From Haloferax sulfurifontis ATCC BAA-897 (GTDB lineage: Archaea > Halobacteriota > Halobacteria > Halobacteriales > Haloferacaceae), in the NCBI RefSeq assembly GCF_000337835.1, contig NZ_AOLM01000011.1, forward strand, positions 1 to 64,000: 64,000 bases of DNA, given 5' to 3'. Under the pieces are notes generated by a model. That model was not told the DNA's origin and searched no databases. It was given only the letters and a program-made list of their open reading frames with translations. A program made the position numbers and the translations under genes. Below, piece after piece: positions 6,776 through 14,856 of this stretch; positions within the stretch are counted from its first letter, which is position 1; each line of letters begins with the position of its first letter.

Positions 6776-8368
6776 ATGCCCGCAGAGACGCAGGGAGTCA
6801 TCAGCCTGCTACCGGCGCTCTTCGCAATCGTGCTGACGCTGGTCAGCCGGCAGGTGCTCCTCTCGCTTTTCACCGGCATCTGGATCGGTGCGACCATCCT
6901 GGTGGGATGGAACCCCATCGGCGGGGCGGCGTACTCCCTCCAGTTGGTCATCAACAACGTGACCGAGTCGTTCAACAGCAAACTCCTCCTGTTTACGTTC
7001 CTCTCGGGCGCGATGCTCGGGATGATATTCCTCTCGGGCGGGATGAACGCGCTCGCACAGCGCATCATCGCCCGCATCAAGACCCGGAAACAGGCCGCGT
7101 TGGGGACGAGCGTCCTCGGGATGCTCATCTTCGTCGACTCCTACGCGAGCACGATGATTACGGGCTCGGTGATGCGCCCCATCACCGACAAGTTCGACAT
7201 CAGCCGCGAGAAGCTCGCGTACCTGCTCGATTCGACCACCTCGCCCGTGGTGAGCGTCGCCGTCGTCTCGACGTGGGTCGGCTTCGAGGTCGGCCTCATC
7301 CGCGAGCAGTTCGCCTCGCTCGGCATCGACCAGAGCGCCTTCGTGGTGTTCCTCCAGAGCATCCCGTTCCGCTTCTACAGCCTGCTCGCGGTCGCGCTCG
7401 TGTTCATCCTCGTCGTGATGGACTGGGACTTCGGCCCGATGAAGCGCGCCGAGCGGCGCGCGAAAGAAGAGGGGAAAGTCCTCGGCGACGACGCCGACCC
7501 CCTCATCGAGACCCGCGAGGAGGACATCGTCACGCCCGACCACGTCGACTCGCGCTGGTGGTACTTCGCCGCGCCCATCGTCACGCTCGTCGCCGTCACC
7601 GGCTTCGGCCTGCTGTACTCCGGCGGCTGGCCCGAATTGGCACCCGTCGAGGCGCTGAAGGGAGCGGCCACCGCCGACGCCATCCTCTGGGGAGTCTTCT
7701 CGGCGTGCGCGCTACTGCTCGCCATCCTCGTCGGCCACGCCCGCGTCCAACTCGAAGCCGTCAGCGACGCCATCTTCGAGGGCTTCAAGATGGTCATGTT
7801 CCCCGTGGCCGTCCTCTCGCTGGCGTGGACCATCGGCGGCGTCAGTCAGGCGCTCGGCGTCGGTCCGTTCGTCGTCAGCGTCGCCGAGGGCGTCATCACG
7901 CCCGAACTCCTGCCCGCGGTCGTCTTCCTCGCCGCGGCCATCATCTCGTTCTCCATCGGCACGTCGTGGGGGACGATGAGTATCATGTTCCCCGTCGCGG
8001 TGCCGCTTGCCTACCAGCTCGGCGCGCCGCTCCCCGGTGCCATCGGCGCTATCCTCACCGGCTCGCTGTTCGGTGACCACTGTTCGCCCATCAGCGACAC
8101 GACGGTCCTCTCGTCGATGTTCGCCGGCGCGGACCACGTCGACCACGTGAACACGCAGATTCCGTACGCACTGCTGAGCGGAACGGTCGCCACGGGGCTG
8201 TTCCTCGCGGACGGCTACGGCGTGAGCACGCTCACGGTCTCCGGCTACGGCGTCGGCCCCCTCGCGCTCCTCGGCGTCGGCGTCCTCACGCTCTTCGTCG
8301 CCGCCTACTATCTCTCCCAGCACGCCGACGTGAGCGTTCCGAACGCGTTCGGGTCGTCGTCCGACTAA
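6776..8368 (+). CDS. NhaC-family Na+/H+ (or organic ion) antiporter
   Basis: A 530-residue membrane protein with 11-13 hydrophobic segments. The core has the duplicated NhaC-type motifs: FVDSYASTMITGSVMRPITD in the first half and IGTSWGTMSIMFPVAVPL with a GDHCSPISDTT stretch in the second. The family exchanges Na+ for H+, or swaps related organic ions such as malate/lactate, across the cell membrane, important for a halophile's low cytoplasmic sodium. A hydrophilic loop with many charged residues lies near 220-255. It is monocistronic. Confidence 0.88.
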   Translation: MPAETQGVISLLPALFAIVLTLVSRQVLLSLFTGIWIGATILVGWNPIGGAAYSLQLVINNVTESFNSKLLLFTFLSGAMLGMIFLSGGMNALAQRIIARIKTRKQAALGTSVLGMLIFVDSYASTMITGSVMRPITDKFDISREKLAYLLDSTTSPVVSVAVVSTWVGFEVGLIREQFASLGIDQSAFVVFLQSIPFRFYSLLAVALVFILVVMDWDFGPMKRAERRAKEEGKVLGDDADPLIETREEDIVTPDHVDSRWWYFAAPIVTLVAVTGFGLLYSGGWPELAPVEALKGAATADAILWGVFSACALLLAILVGHARVQLEAVSDAIFEGFKMVMFPVAVLSLAWTIGGVSQALGVGPFVVSVAEGVITPELLPAVVFLAAAIISFSIGTSWGTMSIMFPVAVPLAYQLGAPLPGAIGAILTGSLFGDHCSPISDTTVLSSMFAGADHVDHVNTQIPYALLSGTVATGLFLADGYGVSTLTVSGYGVGPLALLGVGVLTLFVAAYYLSQHADVSVPNAFGSSSD

Positions 8369-8387: not shown

Positions 8388-8807
8388 TCACCGCCCGACG
8401 AACCCCGCGACCAGCACCGTCGCGTACGCCAAGAGCAACAGCCCGCCGAAGAGCCCCGCGGCTCCGAGGCCCATGTTCGGGTAGACGACCGAGAACAGCG
8501 CCGTCGAGACCGCGTCGACGAGCATCCCGGGGACGACGAGCAACACCGCCGCCTCCCGCCGCGCGCCGCCGGAGAGCCCGCGCCACCGGAAGACCCCGAC
8601 CGCGAGCGCCCACATCGCGGGGACCGTCAGCGCGAACACCGCGGCCGTGACCAGCGGACGGGAGGGGACCAACACGAGTTGGCCGACGACGCGGAAGACG
8701 AGGCCCGCGACGAGGGCAATCGCCAGCCCGACGCCGAGGAGCACCCGCGTCTCCGACAGCGGGAGCCGGCGGGCGTCGGCCTCGACGACCTGTGAACCGA
8801 TTGTCAT
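8388..8807 (-). CDS. Small four-helix membrane protein (possibly DUF5367-like)
   Basis: A 139-residue protein with four hydrophobic segments (for example LLGVGLAIALVAGLVF and LVTAAVFALTVPAMWALAV) separated by short polar loops, and a 20-residue soluble N-terminus. It converges with the antiporter gene, ending about 20 bases from it. The pattern reminds me of the small DUF5367 membrane family, but I cannot confirm this. Function unknown. Confidence 0.7.
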   Translation of the reverse strand: MTIGSQVVEADARRLPLSETRVLLGVGLAIALVAGLVFRVVGQLVLVPSRPLVTAAVFALTVPAMWALAVGVFRWRGLSGGARREAAVLLVVPGMLVDAVSTALFSVVYPNMGLGAAGLFGGLLLLAYATVLVAGFVGR

Positions 8808-8888
8808 GCGCTCCGTACGCGGGCAGAAGGTATCAGCGTTCGTGCCGGCCGCAGGATATTATGTCACTCGGGCACAACGCTTGGTCGA

Positions 8889-9134
8889 ATGTCAGTTCTC
8901 TCGACTGCCGACGAAGGGAAGTTCCTCATGGACGAGGAGGCCGAACAGATCGGAATCGTGACCGAGGTCGACGCGGACGCCCAAATCGCGTACGTCGAAC
9001 CCGACCCGGACCTCGCCGAGGCGGTCCTGCAGGGCCTCGGTTTCGGCGACGCCGACGGCGACGACATCGAGGTCCCGGCCGAGTCGGTCGAGACGGTCAC
9101 CGACTCGGAGCTTCGCGTCGCCAAGGACCTCTGA
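8889..9134 (+). CDS. Small acidic protein, PRC-barrel-like pattern
   Basis: An 81-residue very acidic protein. Its strands (EQIGIVTEVDADAQIAYVEP, then DIEVPAESVETVTDSELRV) resemble a PRC-barrel-like small beta domain. A GATATTATG element near 8855-8863 lies about 28-30 bases before the ATG at 8889, consistent with a leaderless transcript; an internal ATG at 8931 is a weaker alternative start. No functional assignment is possible from sequence alone. Confidence 0.65.
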   Translation: MSVLSTADEGKFLMDEEAEQIGIVTEVDADAQIAYVEPDPDLAEAVLQGLGFGDADGDDIEVPAESVETVTDSELRVAKDL

Positions 9135-9295
9135 GCCGCCGCGACGAACCGCTGTTTTCCGCCGCGAATCTCGATTCGCGAGCCGCGCGTCGACCGAACT
9201 GACGGCGGCTCCGTCTCCCGCGTTCGGCCGCCTCTCAGATATCAGGGTTGGGACAGGCATAACCGTCCTGCACTCCTCACACTAGAGAGTTACTT

Positions 9296-10501
9296 ATGGA
9301 TATCTCCGAGATACTCTCAACGAAGTTCACCGAGTTCGACATCGGAACCCCTCTCTCGAAAGTCGCCGGGGCGTTCGAGAACCAGGAACTCGATGCCGTC
9401 GTCGTAACGGACGGCGACGAATATCGCGGTATCGTGAGCCGCCGACAGCTGGCGTCCTCGTCCAATCAGCCGTCCGCGAAGGTCGGCTCACAGGTCCAGC
9501 ACGTCCCGACTGTCGACCGCACCGAGGACGTCCGCGAGGTCGCGCGACTCATGGTCGGGAGCGACGCCAAAACGCTCCCCGTACTCCGCGACGACCGTGT
9601 CGTCGGTGTGGTGACTGGCGATGCCGTGCTCGAAGCCGTTCGACCGTTTCTCGACGCGGTGACTGTCGACGACGCCTACACGGCGGAATTGGTCAGTGCG
9701 ACCCCTGAGACCACGATCGGGAAAGCGCTCAACCTGCTCCGAGAAGCCGGAATCGACCATCTCCCGATCGTCGACGGGGACGACCTCGCGGGCATGCTGA
9801 GCCTGTACGACGTCATCGAGTTCACGACGCGGGGCGGTCAGAAGAGCCAAGGCGGGTCGGGTGGCTCCAGTGGCCGCGGCGGTGGCCGACAGAACCGTGG
9901 CGGGTTCGGGGCGCGCGAGGGCGATTCCGACCGAATGCTCGATCTACCGGTACGGAACCTGATGTCCGACGCGGTCTTCACCGTCGAGCGGAGCGCTCCG
10001 CTCGACGAGGTCGTCGAGACGATGTTCGAGCGGGAGATATCCTCGCTCATCGTCACGGCCGACGGGACCGGTGAGCCGGTCGGCATCATCACGAAGACGG
10101 ACGTCATCGAGGCGCTCACCTGGGAGCGAAACGACCGGAACGCCGTGCAGGTGTTCGGCCTTGAACTGCTGGAGGGGATGGACTACGACGACGTCTCCGC
10201 ACTCATCGAGGACATGGCCTCGAAGTACGGCGAGATGAGCGTGATCAAGGCCAGTATCGAACTGCAGGAGCACAAGGAACAATCGCGGGGCGTGCCGCTG
10301 GTGCTGGCGCGGATTCGGCTGGTCACCGACCGCGGTTACTTCACGGCCGACGGGGAGGGGTACGGTGCTTCCCACGCCCTCCGTCTGGCTGCGAACGCTG
10401 TCGAACGCCAGCTTCTCAAGGGGAAGACCTACGGCCAGTCGAAGAAGCGCCCCGTCACTGACGAGCAGGCACAGCTCTATGGCTGGTGGCTCGGTAGGTA
10501 A
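9296..10501 (+). CDS. Multi-CBS-domain protein with C-terminal HPF/RaiA-like ribosome-binding domain
   Basis: A 401-residue protein. Residues ~1-180 hold two to three CBS motifs (DAVVVTDGDEYRGIVSR, KTLPVLRDDRVVGVVTGD, DHLPIVDGDDLAGMLSL), then a Gly/Ser/Arg linker of about 35 residues, then another CBS unit (SSLIVTADGTGEPVGIITKTD). Residues ~285-385 fit the beta-alpha-beta-beta-beta-alpha pattern of ribosome hibernation promoting factor HPF/RaiA: VLARIRLVTDRGYFTADGEG followed by a helix ending NAVERQLLKGK aligns by eye with the end of bacterial HPF. CBS domains usually bind adenine nucleotides, so an energy-sensing ribosome factor is inferred. The gene is somewhat less GC-rich than its surroundings. 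The CBS part is certain, the HPF part likely. Confidence 0.85.
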   Translation: MDISEILSTKFTEFDIGTPLSKVAGAFENQELDAVVVTDGDEYRGIVSRRQLASSSNQPSAKVGSQVQHVPTVDRTEDVREVARLMVGSDAKTLPVLRDDRVVGVVTGDAVLEAVRPFLDAVTVDDAYTAELVSATPETTIGKALNLLREAGIDHLPIVDGDDLAGMLSLYDVIEFTTRGGQKSQGGSGGSSGRGGGRQNRGGFGAREGDSDRMLDLPVRNLMSDAVFTVERSAPLDEVVETMFEREISSLIVTADGTGEPVGIITKTDVIEALTWERNDRNAVQVFGLELLEGMDYDDVSALIEDMASKYGEMSVIKASIELQEHKEQSRGVPLVLARIRLVTDRGYFTADGEGYGASHALRLAANAVERQLLKGKTYGQSKKRPVTDEQAQLYGWWLGR

Positions 10502-10600
10502 TCGAATCGGTAGCTACAAGCGGGCAACCGTTGCTGGCCGGCACACTCCCCTAGTCAAAGCGAGTTCGGGGCGTCATCTGAACGTGGATGCGACCGGGGC

Positions 10601-11029
10601 TTACCCCCGAGTCTGACGGATGAACTCGTCGAGTGCTTCTTCGATGAGCGTCGCAACCCGCTCACTGTACCGCCAGAGCGCCGCGTTGAGTCGCTCTTCG
10701 GTCTCGTCATCGAGGTCGTCGGCCCCACGAAGGACGGAGTCTTTGGTTATCTGGGGGTGATACACACAAACGACGCCGAGCGAGGTATCCGAACTCGAAG
10801 TTCCAGCCGTGTGGATTCCGTATTGGTCAGTTCCCCAGACACCATCCCCGCCCTCTCGCTCCAGTTCGGAGTCGAGCGCGTCGACCAGTTGGACCTCTCC
10901 GGGGGAGAGGATGGCGTCGTCACCTTCGAACAGTTCAGTGTACGCCTCCATTCGCGCATCTCTCGTCCACTGGTCCAGCTGGGACCGCGCACGGAGTACG
11001 AGCTGGCGCTCGTCTGGGAATTCTGCCAT
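10601..11029 (-). CDS. Conserved-looking hypothetical protein, 142 aa
   Basis: A 142-residue acidic, soluble protein starting MAEFPDERQLVLRARSQLDQW. It is mostly helical, with a middle beta stretch (YGIHTAGTSSSDTSLGVVCVYHP) and a C-terminal helix. The reading frame has normal haloarchaeal codon positions and acidic composition, so it is very likely a real gene. It lies between the CBS-HPF gene (convergent) and the CorC-type gene (same strand, 240 bases upstream). I do not recognise a family; no catalytic motif is evident. Confidence 0.6.
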   Translation of the reverse strand: MAEFPDERQLVLRARSQLDQWTRDARMEAYTELFEGDDAILSPGEVQLVDALDSELEREGGDGVWGTDQYGIHTAGTSSSDTSLGVVCVYHPQITKDSVLRGADDLDDETEERLNAALWRYSERVATLIEEALDEFIRQTRG

Positions 11030-11266
11030 AGTTCTAGAAGGACGGCCAGGTCAATCAACGTTCGTGCGGTGAATCAGAGCGCCGCGAACGGTGATGAGCC
11101 TGCGTTAGGGACACATCCCAACCGTTGATTCAGATTTCGAGTTCCGACAGCATCGTCTTCTGGCACCAGCCGGCTCCGGGACGTGGACGTCTGCAGTGAT
11201 AATCGGACAATCCGAATCGCGGCTCTTGGACCGCGCTGGGCTCGTTTCCGTTTCCGTTTCGAATTA

Positions 11267-12607
11267 CTACTCACCGTCCGTCTCTTCACCTGACTCGGCC
11301 TCGTGAATCACGAGCCGTTCGATTCGAGCGTCATCGACGGCCTCGACCCGAAGGACGTATCCGTTCTGTTGGATTTGGTCTCCCACTTCGGGAACTCTGC
11401 CGAGACGGCTGAAGACCAGCCCACCGATCGTCTCGACATCGTCGCTCTCCAATCGCGTGTCGAGCCTATCGTTTACGTCCTGAATGGAAATTCCTCCGTC
11501 GACGACGTACGCTCCGTCGTCTCGCTTCTCGATGGACCGCTCCTGCGCATCGGTATCGAATTCGTCCTGGATATCGCCCACGATTTCTTCGAGGATGTCT
11601 TCGATGGTCACGATGCCCTCGAAGACACCCCACTCGTCGACGACGACGGCCATCTGGCCTTCGCCACGCGTCTGAAAGTCGGCGAGAATCGCGTCGATCC
11701 GACGCGTTTCCGGGACCGTGAGGACCGCTCGTGCGAGTTCACGTGCCGTGACCGTGCCGTCCGGGTCCGTCCCGGTTTCGCTCGCTCGCAGGATGTCCTT
11801 GGCGTGGACGAATCCAAGCGGTTGATTCCCGTCCTCGTCGAGCACGAGATAGCGCGTGTACGACCCGGTGGCGGCAATCGACCGGAGTTCCGAGAGCGGC
11901 ATCGAGGCGGTCACGGTTTCCACGTCTGGCCGCGGGACCATGACCTCGCGGGCGACCGTATCTCCGAGTTCGAAGACGCTCTCGATCATTTCAACCTCGT
12001 CGAGGTCGATGTGTCCCGTCTCCTCCGAGCGGGTGAGGATCATCCGAATCTCAGATTCGGAGTGGGTCTCCTCGCTCTCGGAGGCCGGGGAGACACCTAC
12101 GAGGCGGGTGAAGTAGTTGGCCGTGCCGTTGAAGACGATGATGCCGGGCACGAACACGTAGTAGAAGAACTTCATGAGCGGGGCGAGGAGGAGCGAGACA
12201 CGCGTGGCCTCTTGGATGGCGAACGTCTTCGGTGCGAGTTCGCCGAACACCACGTGGAGGAACGTGATGAACCCGAAGCCCAGGACGAACGCGACGAGAT
12301 GGACTGTGTCCGCAGGGAGCACCTGGCCGAGGACGGGGTCAATGAGCGCTGCGACAGCCGGTTCACCGATCCAGCCGAGACCGAGCGAGGAGAGCGTGAT
12401 ACCGAGTTGACTGACAGCCAGATAGTCGTCCAGGTTCTGGATGACGTCCTGCACGAGGGGCGCGCCCGGTCTCCCGCGTTCGACGAGCGCGTTCACCTGC
12501 GTGGGACGGACTTTGACGAACGCGAACTCCGCCGCGACGAAGACTCCGTTCATGACGACGAGGAAGAAGGCGAGGAGCAGTCCGCCGAGAGAAATCAGGT
12601 CTACCAT
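11267..12607 (-). CDS. CNNM/CorC-HlyC-type membrane protein with CBS pair
   Basis: A 446-residue protein in the usual order for the family: CNNM transmembrane domain (about 1-170; motifs ISLGGLLLAFF, GITLSSLGLGWIGEPAVA, FGELAPKTFAIQ), two CBS domains (about 200-330; VMVPRPDVETV, MAVVVDEWGVFEGIVTIEDILEEIVGDI split over both) and a C-terminal CorC/HlyC transporter-associated domain (VDGGISIQDVNDRL). Relatives are implicated in Mg2+/Co2+ efflux or Na+-coupled Mg2+ transport; bacterial members are often labelled hemolysin. It is the second CBS protein in this cluster. Confidence 0.9.
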   Translation of the reverse strand: MVDLISLGGLLLAFFLVVMNGVFVAAEFAFVKVRPTQVNALVERGRPGAPLVQDVIQNLDDYLAVSQLGITLSSLGLGWIGEPAVAALIDPVLGQVLPADTVHLVAFVLGFGFITFLHVVFGELAPKTFAIQEATRVSLLLAPLMKFFYYVFVPGIIVFNGTANYFTRLVGVSPASESEETHSESEIRMILTRSEETGHIDLDEVEMIESVFELGDTVAREVMVPRPDVETVTASMPLSELRSIAATGSYTRYLVLDEDGNQPLGFVHAKDILRASETGTDPDGTVTARELARAVLTVPETRRIDAILADFQTRGEGQMAVVVDEWGVFEGIVTIEDILEEIVGDIQDEFDTDAQERSIEKRDDGAYVVDGGISIQDVNDRLDTRLESDDVETIGGLVFSRLGRVPEVGDQIQQNGYVLRVEAVDDARIERLVIHEAESGEETDGE

Positions 12608-12906
12608 AGTCGATTACGGACACCCGGACACTTGTAGGGACGGATACCGCTCGGTCTTCTGCGGTCAGCGTGTCCACGAATCGCGGGTGACCACGCTTCC
12701 GATTCCGTCTGTACTATCCCTCGATACTCACGCTCTCTCGCCCGTTCGTTGAGGACAGTGACAGACGGCCTTGTGAACTCCCGGTGGTTCGAGGCCGTTC
12801 GGGCAGACACGTCAGATCCATGGCTGTGCTCGTCCCGGCGGCGACGCACGCGACACGCCGAGTCACAGACGTAACTGGACCGATTCCAAGGGGAGCGTCC
12901 GCGCCC

Positions 12907-13143
12907 TCAGTCCGCGAAGTCGTCGTCGTATTGTTCGTAGATGATGGTCAGCCGCCCCGGTGTGGGCCGCTTCGCTGCGTCTCGAAGCGTACGGAACTCT
13001 TCCAAGAGTTCGTCGGCGTCGTCCGTCTCTTCTCGGACGCTCCGCGATTCTTCTCGAATAGTATCGTACACCTGCGCCAGCATGCGCCGAGCGGCGTACG
13101 AATCGGTCTTCGAGTCTATCTCGAAAGACGCCTCGTAGGACAT
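12907..13143 (-). CDS. Small helical protein, 78 aa
   Basis: A 78-residue protein beginning MSYEASFEIDSKTDSYAARR, with a beta strand followed by one long charged helix. The ATG at 13143 is preferred because a GTTATCCC TATA-like element lies about 24 bases upstream; an upstream ATG at 13182 would precede this promoter. It is isolated between gene-poor flanks of 299 and 537 bases. Function unknown. Confidence 0.55.
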   Translation of the reverse strand: MSYEASFEIDSKTDSYAARRMLAQVYDTIREESRSVREETDDADELLEEFRTLRDAAKRPTPGRLTIIYEQYDDDFAD

Positions 13144-13680
13144 ACTCGTAGTTGGCGCTCCACTGGGATAACTCACCTTCATTTCTTATCGTGGAGAACC
13201 GTTCGTTTGATGCGGATTGATTTTCGTCCCTTCGAACGCTCCGGTTCGACAGCCTAAGAGTATCCTCGGAATCGCCCCCTCAAGCGCGGGAGAACGACTA
13301 GTACTGACGGCTCCCATGAATGACTCGCAACGTGCTGTCTTTCGAGATATCGCACAGTCCGTCCACCGAGTGGCCTGCGACGATTCAACTCCACTATCGA
13401 CCGGAGCCCGCTCTCCGGCTGGAATCAGATATCCGCATTGTCTCGGGGAGGTGGTTCGAACACGATGCTCATGGCTCGTTGAGCAGTTCGTCTGCGGTCT
13501 TCCGATGGCCGATTTCAAATTCGCCCCCCACGACTGTTACAGAGGTTCTACACGCTACGAACTGATCGCCCCCAACCAATCAATTCTGTATAGCGACTTT
13601 TGGTTTACCTGTGGCGTGTCGGACGGGTTTCTGACCCACAAGATGCGACAAGAACCCCGAGAAAAACAGTGCGTTGACAG
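13144..13680. other. Gene-poor stretch, no supported gene
   Basis: No frame here carries a convincing protein. Open frames exist on both strands (for example 13217-13780 plus and 13186-13518 minus) but they lack the acidic composition and third-position GC bias of neighbouring genes, and the longest runs into the 3' end of ychF. Base composition is lower in GC than the flanks. It may hold a decayed gene, plus the promoter of the gene ending at 12907. Confidence 0.4.
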
Positions 13681-14856
13681 TTACTTCGCCGTCGAGACGA
13701 TTTTGATGACGTCGCCCTCTTCGAGTTCGTGGTCTTCGGCGATGCGGCGTTTCTCCCTCGCGTCGACCGCGTGGAGGTAGCCGTCGCCGATGTCGGAGTG
13801 GACCGCGTACGCGAGGTCCCGCGGCGTCGACCCCCGTGGGAGGAGGAAGGCGTCGGGGAGGACGTTGCCCGTGCCGTCGGTCCACTTCGACTCGTTTTGG
13901 ACCGGGTAGACCGTGATACGGTCGAGCACGTCGTAGACCGCGGTGTCGATGGCCTCCTGCGTGCCGGTGCCGCCGTGTTCGCCCATCAGGTCGCGGATGC
14001 GTTCGAGACCCGTTTCCTGTGCGCCGCTCACGTCGCCGACGAGTTCGAAGTCGTCGTCGCCGGGGTGGTAGTCGATGATGCCCGCCTCGCGGGCCCGCCG
14101 GAGCGCGAGTTCGCCGTCCGCGGTCGCGGCGATGACGGGCTTTCCGGTCTCGGCGAGTCGTTCGAGGTTCTCCGGGGGCGCGATGTCGACCTTGTTGGCG
14201 ACGAGGACGATTGGCTTGGTCCGCTGGCGAATCGCGCGGGCGAGTTCGACGCGGTCAGCGTCCTCCCAGTCTCGGGGGTTCGGCGAGTAGTCGAGTTCTC
14301 GCAGGACCGCGGCAATGTCGTGTTCGCTCGCGCCGACGCCCGTCAGGAGGTCCGAGAGGGCGTCGTCCATGTCGAAGTCGGGCGACCGCGACTTGCGGAC
14401 CACGGACTCCCAGTTCTTGTGGACGATGCCCGCGAGCCACTGTTCGAGTTCCTCCTCGATGAAGTCGACCTCCTCGACGGGGTCGAAGCTCCCCACCTCG
14501 ACGGGTTCGCCCTCGGCGTTCGTCCCGCCGGAGGCGTCGACGACGTTGACGATGGCGTCGGCGTTCGTCAGTTCGTCGAGGAACTGGTTGCCGAGGCCGC
14601 GACCCTCGTGCGCGCCGGGGACGAGGCCCGCAACGTCCACGAGTTCGACCGGAACGTAGCGGATGCCGTCCTCGCAGTTGCCACAGCGCTCGTCGCGGTC
14701 GAGACAGGGACAACGGGTCCGAGCGTGCGTGACGCCGCGGTTCGCGTCGATAGTCGTGAAGGGGTAGTTCGCCACGTCGACCTCGGCGAGCGTCGAGGCC
14801 GTGTAGAACGTCGATTTGCCGGCGTTCGGCTTGCCGGCTAACGCGAGAGAGAGCAT
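13681..14856 (-). CDS. ychF: YchF/Ola1-type GTPase/ATPase
   Basis: A 391-residue OBG-family P-loop NTPase. The N-terminus begins MLSLALAGKPNAGKST (G1 motif), followed by a Cys-rich insertion (CPCLDRDERCGNC) seen in archaeal members, DVAGLVPGAHEGRGLGN (G3 region) and VLVANKVD (G4). The last ~70 residues form a TGS domain. Family members bind ribosomes and act in translation or stress response; some prefer ATP. It ends next to the gene-poor 13.1-13.7 kb stretch. Confidence 0.92.
   Translation of the reverse strand: MLSLALAGKPNAGKSTFYTASTLAEVDVANYPFTTIDANRGVTHARTRCPCLDRDERCGNCEDGIRYVPVELVDVAGLVPGAHEGRGLGNQFLDELTNADAIVNVVDASGGTNAEGEPVEVGSFDPVEEVDFIEEELEQWLAGIVHKNWESVVRKSRSPDFDMDDALSDLLTGVGASEHDIAAVLRELDYSPNPRDWEDADRVELARAIRQRTKPIVLVANKVDIAPPENLERLAETGKPVIAATADGELALRRAREAGIIDYHPGDDDFELVGDVSGAQETGLERIRDLMGEHGGTGTQEAIDTAVYDVLDRITVYPVQNESKWTDGTGNVLPDAFLLPRGSTPRDLAYAVHSDIGDGYLHAVDAREKRRIAEDHELEEGDVIKIVSTAK

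Follow-up and report, generated by a model that had tools for sequence, protein, structure and literature searches.

Proteins that join four CBS repeats to an HPF/RaiA domain were named HibA in April 2026 and are present in 47% of archaeal genomes (PMC13324472). In Thermococcales, HibA binds 70S ribosomes, inhibits translation in vitro and preserves 70S, and cells that lose it have ~60% less 70S in stationary phase and resume growth later (PMC13324472). The protein occupies single 70S particles, a 50S-only HibA complex was not seen in Pyrococcus, and a loop in the CBS module is assigned to the peptidyl-transferase centre (PTC); the 9SR9 structure comes from the same work (PMC13324472). For the H. 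volcanii CBS protein HVO_2384 (published mass 42,521 Da, pI 4.87), which co-purified with Pat2 Y154A, a hibernation-factor domain had been noted earlier (PMC12607858). Because both are published, the architecture of four CBS repeats plus HPF, and its general reading as a hibernation factor, are already known; what is new here is a mobile accessory haloarchaeal HibA subfamily with an enlarged PTC loop and a link to DUF7539, found alongside core HibA. In the main text of the HibA paper, accessory haloarchaeal copies are not mentioned (PMC13324472). Other CBS modules that bind archaeal ribosomes are Dri of Pyrobaculum (9e6q/9e7f) and SriA-D of Methanosarcina (9znf, 9zng, 9zni), neither of which has an HPF/RaiA domain. 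With one CBS module and an HPF domain, the protein described below is not of the Dri type, which comprises two CBS modules. Bacterial HPF/RaiA proteins (PF02482; e.g. 6h4n, 4v8i, 4hei) share the fold of its residues 284-375, but lack a CBS module and are at most ~20% identical to it.

The locus lies in a 64,000-nucleotide stretch of the Haloferax sulfurifontis ATCC BAA-897 genome (contig NZ_AOLM01000011.1, positions 1 to 64,000), which we refer to as the window; its features are collected in the table below. The forward-strand reading frame at 9296-10501 opens with ATG at 9296, closes with the stop ending at 10501 and encodes 401 amino acids with no internal stop. Against Pfam the full-length protein gave four CBS stretches (E 9e-39) and no other domain, whilst phmmer searches of PDB sequences aligned its residues 2-375 with residues 5-370 of P. 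abyssi HibA (9sr9_H, E 6e-37) and matched it over its full length to chain 9l96_a (E 3e-114). By this homology the product is a member of the HibA family; P. abyssi HibA (Q9UYR4; PDB 9sr9 series) has the same four CBS repeats and HPF/RaiA domain and is homologous to it throughout. Comparison with six relatives gave dN/dS of 0.09-0.20, the gene is thus maintained under purifying selection, and 50,697 phage records returned no match, so a phage origin was rejected. We read the product, at a probability of about 0.85 and by analogy with its relatives, as an accessory, horizontally mobile ribosome-hibernation factor of the HibA type.

Features of the hibA locus and its surroundings (positions are those of the window; residues are those of the 401-aa protein)
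Feature	Position	Strand	Evidence
Antiporter gene, left flank of the insertion	6776-8368		
4.4-kb insertion between conserved chromosomal genes	~9139..13580	.	window compared by blastn with L132, L133, L134
Conserved upstream region, ACAGGCATAACCGTCC...TAGAGAGTTAC-ATG	9234..9295	+	nine aligned group A upstream regions, flanks beyond them unrelated
Group A accessory HibA homologue, 401 aa, CBSx4 + HPF/RaiA-like domain	9296..10501	+	ORF; full-length homology to 9sr9_H and 9l96_a; clade A support 100
N-terminal CBS module, residues 1-276, four repeats	9296..10123	+	Pfam CBS, 4 stretches
Gly/Ser-rich loop, residues 179-208, where P. abyssi HibA has its PTC loop	9830..9919	+	alignment, lengths
HPF/RaiA-fold domain, residues 284-375	10145..10420	+	AF2 model, Foldseek, VIA-align, profile search
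C-terminal extension, residues 378-401, ends YGWWLG	10427..10498	+	alignment
DUF7539 protein, 142 aa, convergent partner gene	10601..11029	-	PF24383, E 2e-68
CNNM/CorC-HlyC membrane protein, two CBS repeats, within the insertion	11267..12607	-	Pfam
YGR210-like GTPase gene, right flank of the insertion	13681-14856		

A preliminary description of this DNA, made from its letters, had proposed a CBS protein fused to an HPF-like domain and had read a beta-alpha-beta-beta-beta-alpha pattern in the last ~100 residues. Both proposals held: besides the four CBS repeats, the whole-protein AlphaFold2 model (pLDDT 74) places exactly this order of strands and helices at residues 284-375. Since AMPK-gamma-like CBS modules dominated the structural search with the full-length model, the C-terminal 123 residues were folded alone with 33 homologues, and the resulting model (pLDDT 79.6) has an identical order of elements. 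With this model, Foldseek against the PDB returned mainly HPF, YfiA and protein Y chains at the top, and the first 32 VIA-align matches were all HPF, RaiA or YfiA proteins, led by E. coli HPF (6h4n_x, Z 12.8, rmsd 2.5 over 94 residues), before any unrelated fold appeared. The structural comparison with RaiA/HPF that had been proposed thus yielded HPF top matches of the right topology, but the profile half of it fell short: PF02482 scores 14.4-14.6 bits on the window protein, below the Pfam gathering cut-off of 23.7 bits, and this match by itself was rejected as proof of HPF identity. It is all the same the best PF02482 match in the whole 3.8-Mb genome, 25 of the 33 homologous C-termini match the family (best E 2.5e-5), and a profile built from these C-termini found six different bacterial HPFs in the PDB at E 0.003-0.07, and the homology is more than chance. 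A dsRBD-like alpha-beta domain that resembles HPF by accident would agree with the sub-threshold PF02482 score and with the presence of dsRBDs in the structural match list; however, the dsRBDs, the first unrelated fold to appear, reach Z of at most 7.9 over ~70 residues against up to 12.8 over 87-106 residues for the HPFs, and structures of homologous HibA proteins have already been solved. The profile matches, the structural matches and the HibA structures together rule this reading out for practical purposes, and we give it a negligible probability.

To place the gene within the family, haloarchaeal HibA copies from a survey of 116 Halobacteria genomes, every one of which holds at least one HibA, were sorted by identity to the window protein. 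Core HibA (~40% identity, 380 aa) is present in nearly every genome; group B (44-54% identity) occupies 30 places in 28 genomes among the matches listed; and group A, to which the window gene belongs (74-100% identity), occurs in 14 genomes. Some genomes hold several copies. In the tree, group A and the core each form a clade with support of 100, and the accessory copies of A and B together form one branch (support 98) within which group B alone is not one clade. We use "accessory haloarchaeal HibA" for groups A and B, a class defined in this analysis, and the window protein, with its long Gly-rich loop and GWxL tail and its position outside the core clade, belongs to it. The core HibA of H. 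sulfurifontis (L002) lies on another contig (G000:C12:50227-51315); its mass of 42520.3 and pI of 4.87 match the published values for HVO_2384, which is therefore most likely the core form, with the window gene a second copy. The two proteins of this genome share the two-domain architecture at ~40% identity, but the HVO_2384-type form is nearly universal in Halobacteria, has a short loop and lacks the GWxL tail. The locus had been proposed as a one-protein link between nucleotide level and translation shut-down in haloarchaea; as an accessory copy beside core HibA it is not "the" haloarchaeal link, and here the genome departs also from the arrangement in P. abyssi, with an accessory copy on an insertion in addition to core HibA. 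In one genome (G049) a core hibA (L071:302-1444) and a group B hibA (1489-2709) are adjacent on the same strand. In another genome (G021, L089) the single full-length HibA has no GWxL tail and diverges before all other accessory copies, possibly an intermediate form.

The accessory copies differ from the core in two regions. The PTC-loop place aligns to the 190-207 region of P. abyssi HibA, and at this equivalent position the window protein has an enlarged loop of ~31 residues rich in Gly and Ser, against 12 in P. abyssi. Loop lengths in the alignment have medians of 31 residues (13 Gly) in group A and 37 (10 Gly) in group B, and are ~12 in haloarchaeal core HibA, other Halobacteriota HibA and P. 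abyssi HibA; in the AlphaFold2 model pLDDT is below 50 at residues 181-208. The second region is a GWxL tail, which P. abyssi HibA does not share, present in 26/26 group A and 32/34 group B sequences and in none of the 13 core or nine outgroup sequences. From this anatomy we infer that the long loop would enter the peptidyl-transferase centre more deeply, or with more flexibility, than a 12-residue PTC loop, and that the tail would project past the HPF fold in the direction of the mRNA exit. A GGQ is present in the window loop, and mimicry of release factors was considered and rejected; GGQ is not a conserved motif, since it occurs in 13/26 group A loops and 1/34 group B loops at differing places.

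The S/T-x-x-D adenylate-contact pattern is found in CBS3 (S169/D172) and CBS4 (T266/D269) of the window protein and is kept in both repeats in groups A and B, in core haloarchaeal HibA and in P. abyssi, whilst in group A, the core and P. abyssi it is mostly missing from CBS1 and CBS2. P. abyssi HibA binds AMP/ATP at CBS3/CBS4, with Kd values of 12 µM for AMP, 65 µM for ADP and 113 µM for ATP (PMC13324472). Judged from the shared motif, the window protein probably binds an adenylate between CBS3 and CBS4. The energy-sensing role suggested for the protein, with control by AMP/ATP, is plausible, but binding of Pyrococcus HibA to the ribosome was unaltered by AMP/ATP (PMC13324472). A CBS ligand of accessory HibA could also be c-di-AMP or Mg2+. 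Genes for diadenylate cyclase and for magnesium transporters lie near accessory hibA on plasmids of Haladaptatus and Haloferax (L109:11443-12000 and 8603-9853; L104:10012-11262).

The insertion that carries hibA and the DUF7539 gene is shown to be recent; in one genome of the same species and in two congeners the antiporter and YGR210-like GTPase genes are joined by a short spacer without it. The hibA-DUF7539 unit (9234-11126) is also found, among unrelated neighbours and with DNA identity of 90-91%, in another Haloferax and on a plasmid of Haloarcula marina, and 42 plasmids in PLSDB carry a HibA homologue (E <= 1e-30), all except one being accessory forms by identity. Neither terminal inverted repeats nor an obvious target duplication was found at the edges of the cassette or the insertion, and transposon ends were accordingly rejected as an account of them. 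Of 42 group A loci, 25 have a DUF7539 gene nearby, and DUF7539 is present in 10/14 group A genomes against 16/102 others (Fisher p 3.6e-5, genomes counted as independent), at 10 kb or less from the group A gene in eight of the 14; the H. sulfurifontis genome holds a second DUF7539 copy (G000:C18:67517-67900). A relative of the CNNM/CorC-HlyC protein, 90% identical, lies 4.4 kb from the accessory hibA of the Haloarcula marina plasmid (L106). By blastn the left edge of the cassette falls at 9234/9238. Within the conserved region upstream of hibA, CATAACCGTCC stands ~30 bases before the ATG in nine group A genes with different flanks further out, and the element GGGACAGGCATAACCGTCC ... TAGAGAGTTAC at 9250-9298 recurs in group A copies with unrelated flanks; on these alignments, the region is a probable promoter (a stress promoter) that moves with hibA. 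A small conserved ORF of 81 aa (8889-9134, +) is found at the left edge of the insertion, and four other group A copies have weak relatives of it nearby.

An accessory copy is also a chain of ribosome entries. Chain a of 9l96, 9l98, 9l9c and 9l9v is the group B protein WP_004060604.1 of the H. mediterranei plasmid pHME505, to which 9l96_a is identical over 403 residues; like the window protein it has a long loop and GWxL tail, is ~48% identical to it, and falls outside its clade A. All four entries also contain a Haloferax-like uL2 (519 bits with H. sulfurifontis uL2), whilst the 9l96 series was absent from the matches to uS12 and uS7, so the entries may be 50S-only. The solved group B complex may therefore be 50S-only, with a binding mode differing from that in Pyrococcus. 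A literature search found no paper or deposited title for these entries, and the link between the accessory form and the ribosome that they offer is a lead.

The predicted role in ribosome hibernation is supported by homology to the HibA family, for whose members it is published (PMC13324472), whilst the alternative proposal of a dimerisation factor found no support, HibA binding single 70S particles (PMC13324472). Most likely, the HPF domain would anchor in the mRNA/tRNA channel of the 30S, the CBS module would sit in the tRNA sites on the 50S, the Gly-rich loop would enter the peptidyl-transferase centre, and the ribosome would be reversibly silenced and shielded from nucleases. This mechanism has been shown for Thermococcales only, and its accessory-specific parts would follow by analogy.

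How the accessory copy would differ from the core copy can be read in several ways. It may be subfunctionalised and serve a ribosomal state, subunit or stress that core HibA does not (its Gly-rich PTC loop might, for example, engage free 50S), a reading that we regard as a serious possibility though at somewhat less than even odds. Accessory copies have long kept a loop and a tail that set them apart from the core, which points this way, as does the 9l96 series, with uL2 and the accessory protein but no uS12 or uS7 match, whereas no 50S-only HibA complex was seen in Pyrococcus; however, the HPF domain, which requires the 30S, is fully kept and conserved, and the missing 30S chains may stem from a masked map or from subunit purification. 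Somewhat less probable is redundancy by dosage, in which a mobile additional HibA would only increase the total capacity for hibernation and be kept by plasmid or island spread. The patchy distribution, plasmid location, recent insertion and several copies in some genomes are consistent with it, but the accessory copies are deep and separate in the tree and have their own conserved loop and tail, needless for plain dosage. A CBS-domain regulator that has lost its ribosome function (e.g. transcriptional or transporter-linked, like CM-3 HhpR) would suit the versatility of CBS modules and the Mg2+ and other transporters that adjoin several relatives, yet we consider it improbable, as the HPF domain is well conserved at the low dN/dS given above and a close paralogue is present in ribosome entries.

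Taking the accessory, mobile hibernation factor as the preferred reading, we tentatively suggest, as a possibility well short of even odds, that haloarchaea carry mobile specialised hibernation factors, plasmid- or island-borne HibA proteins whose Gly-rich loop would plug the peptidyl-transferase centre and whose target particles (perhaps only the 50S) or stresses would not be those of core HibA; DUF7539 would be a partner or antagonist. If this is true, translation shut-down would be a strain-specific, horizontally exchanged trait. Haloferax, a single tractable genus, combines a universal core with mobile accessory copies that differ exactly in the loop assigned to the peptidyl-transferase centre, so what the loop, the nucleotide site of the CBS module and copy number each contribute can be tested directly in a genetically easy archaeon, and the mobile accessory copies suggest that ribosome-hibernation genes are traded on plasmids.
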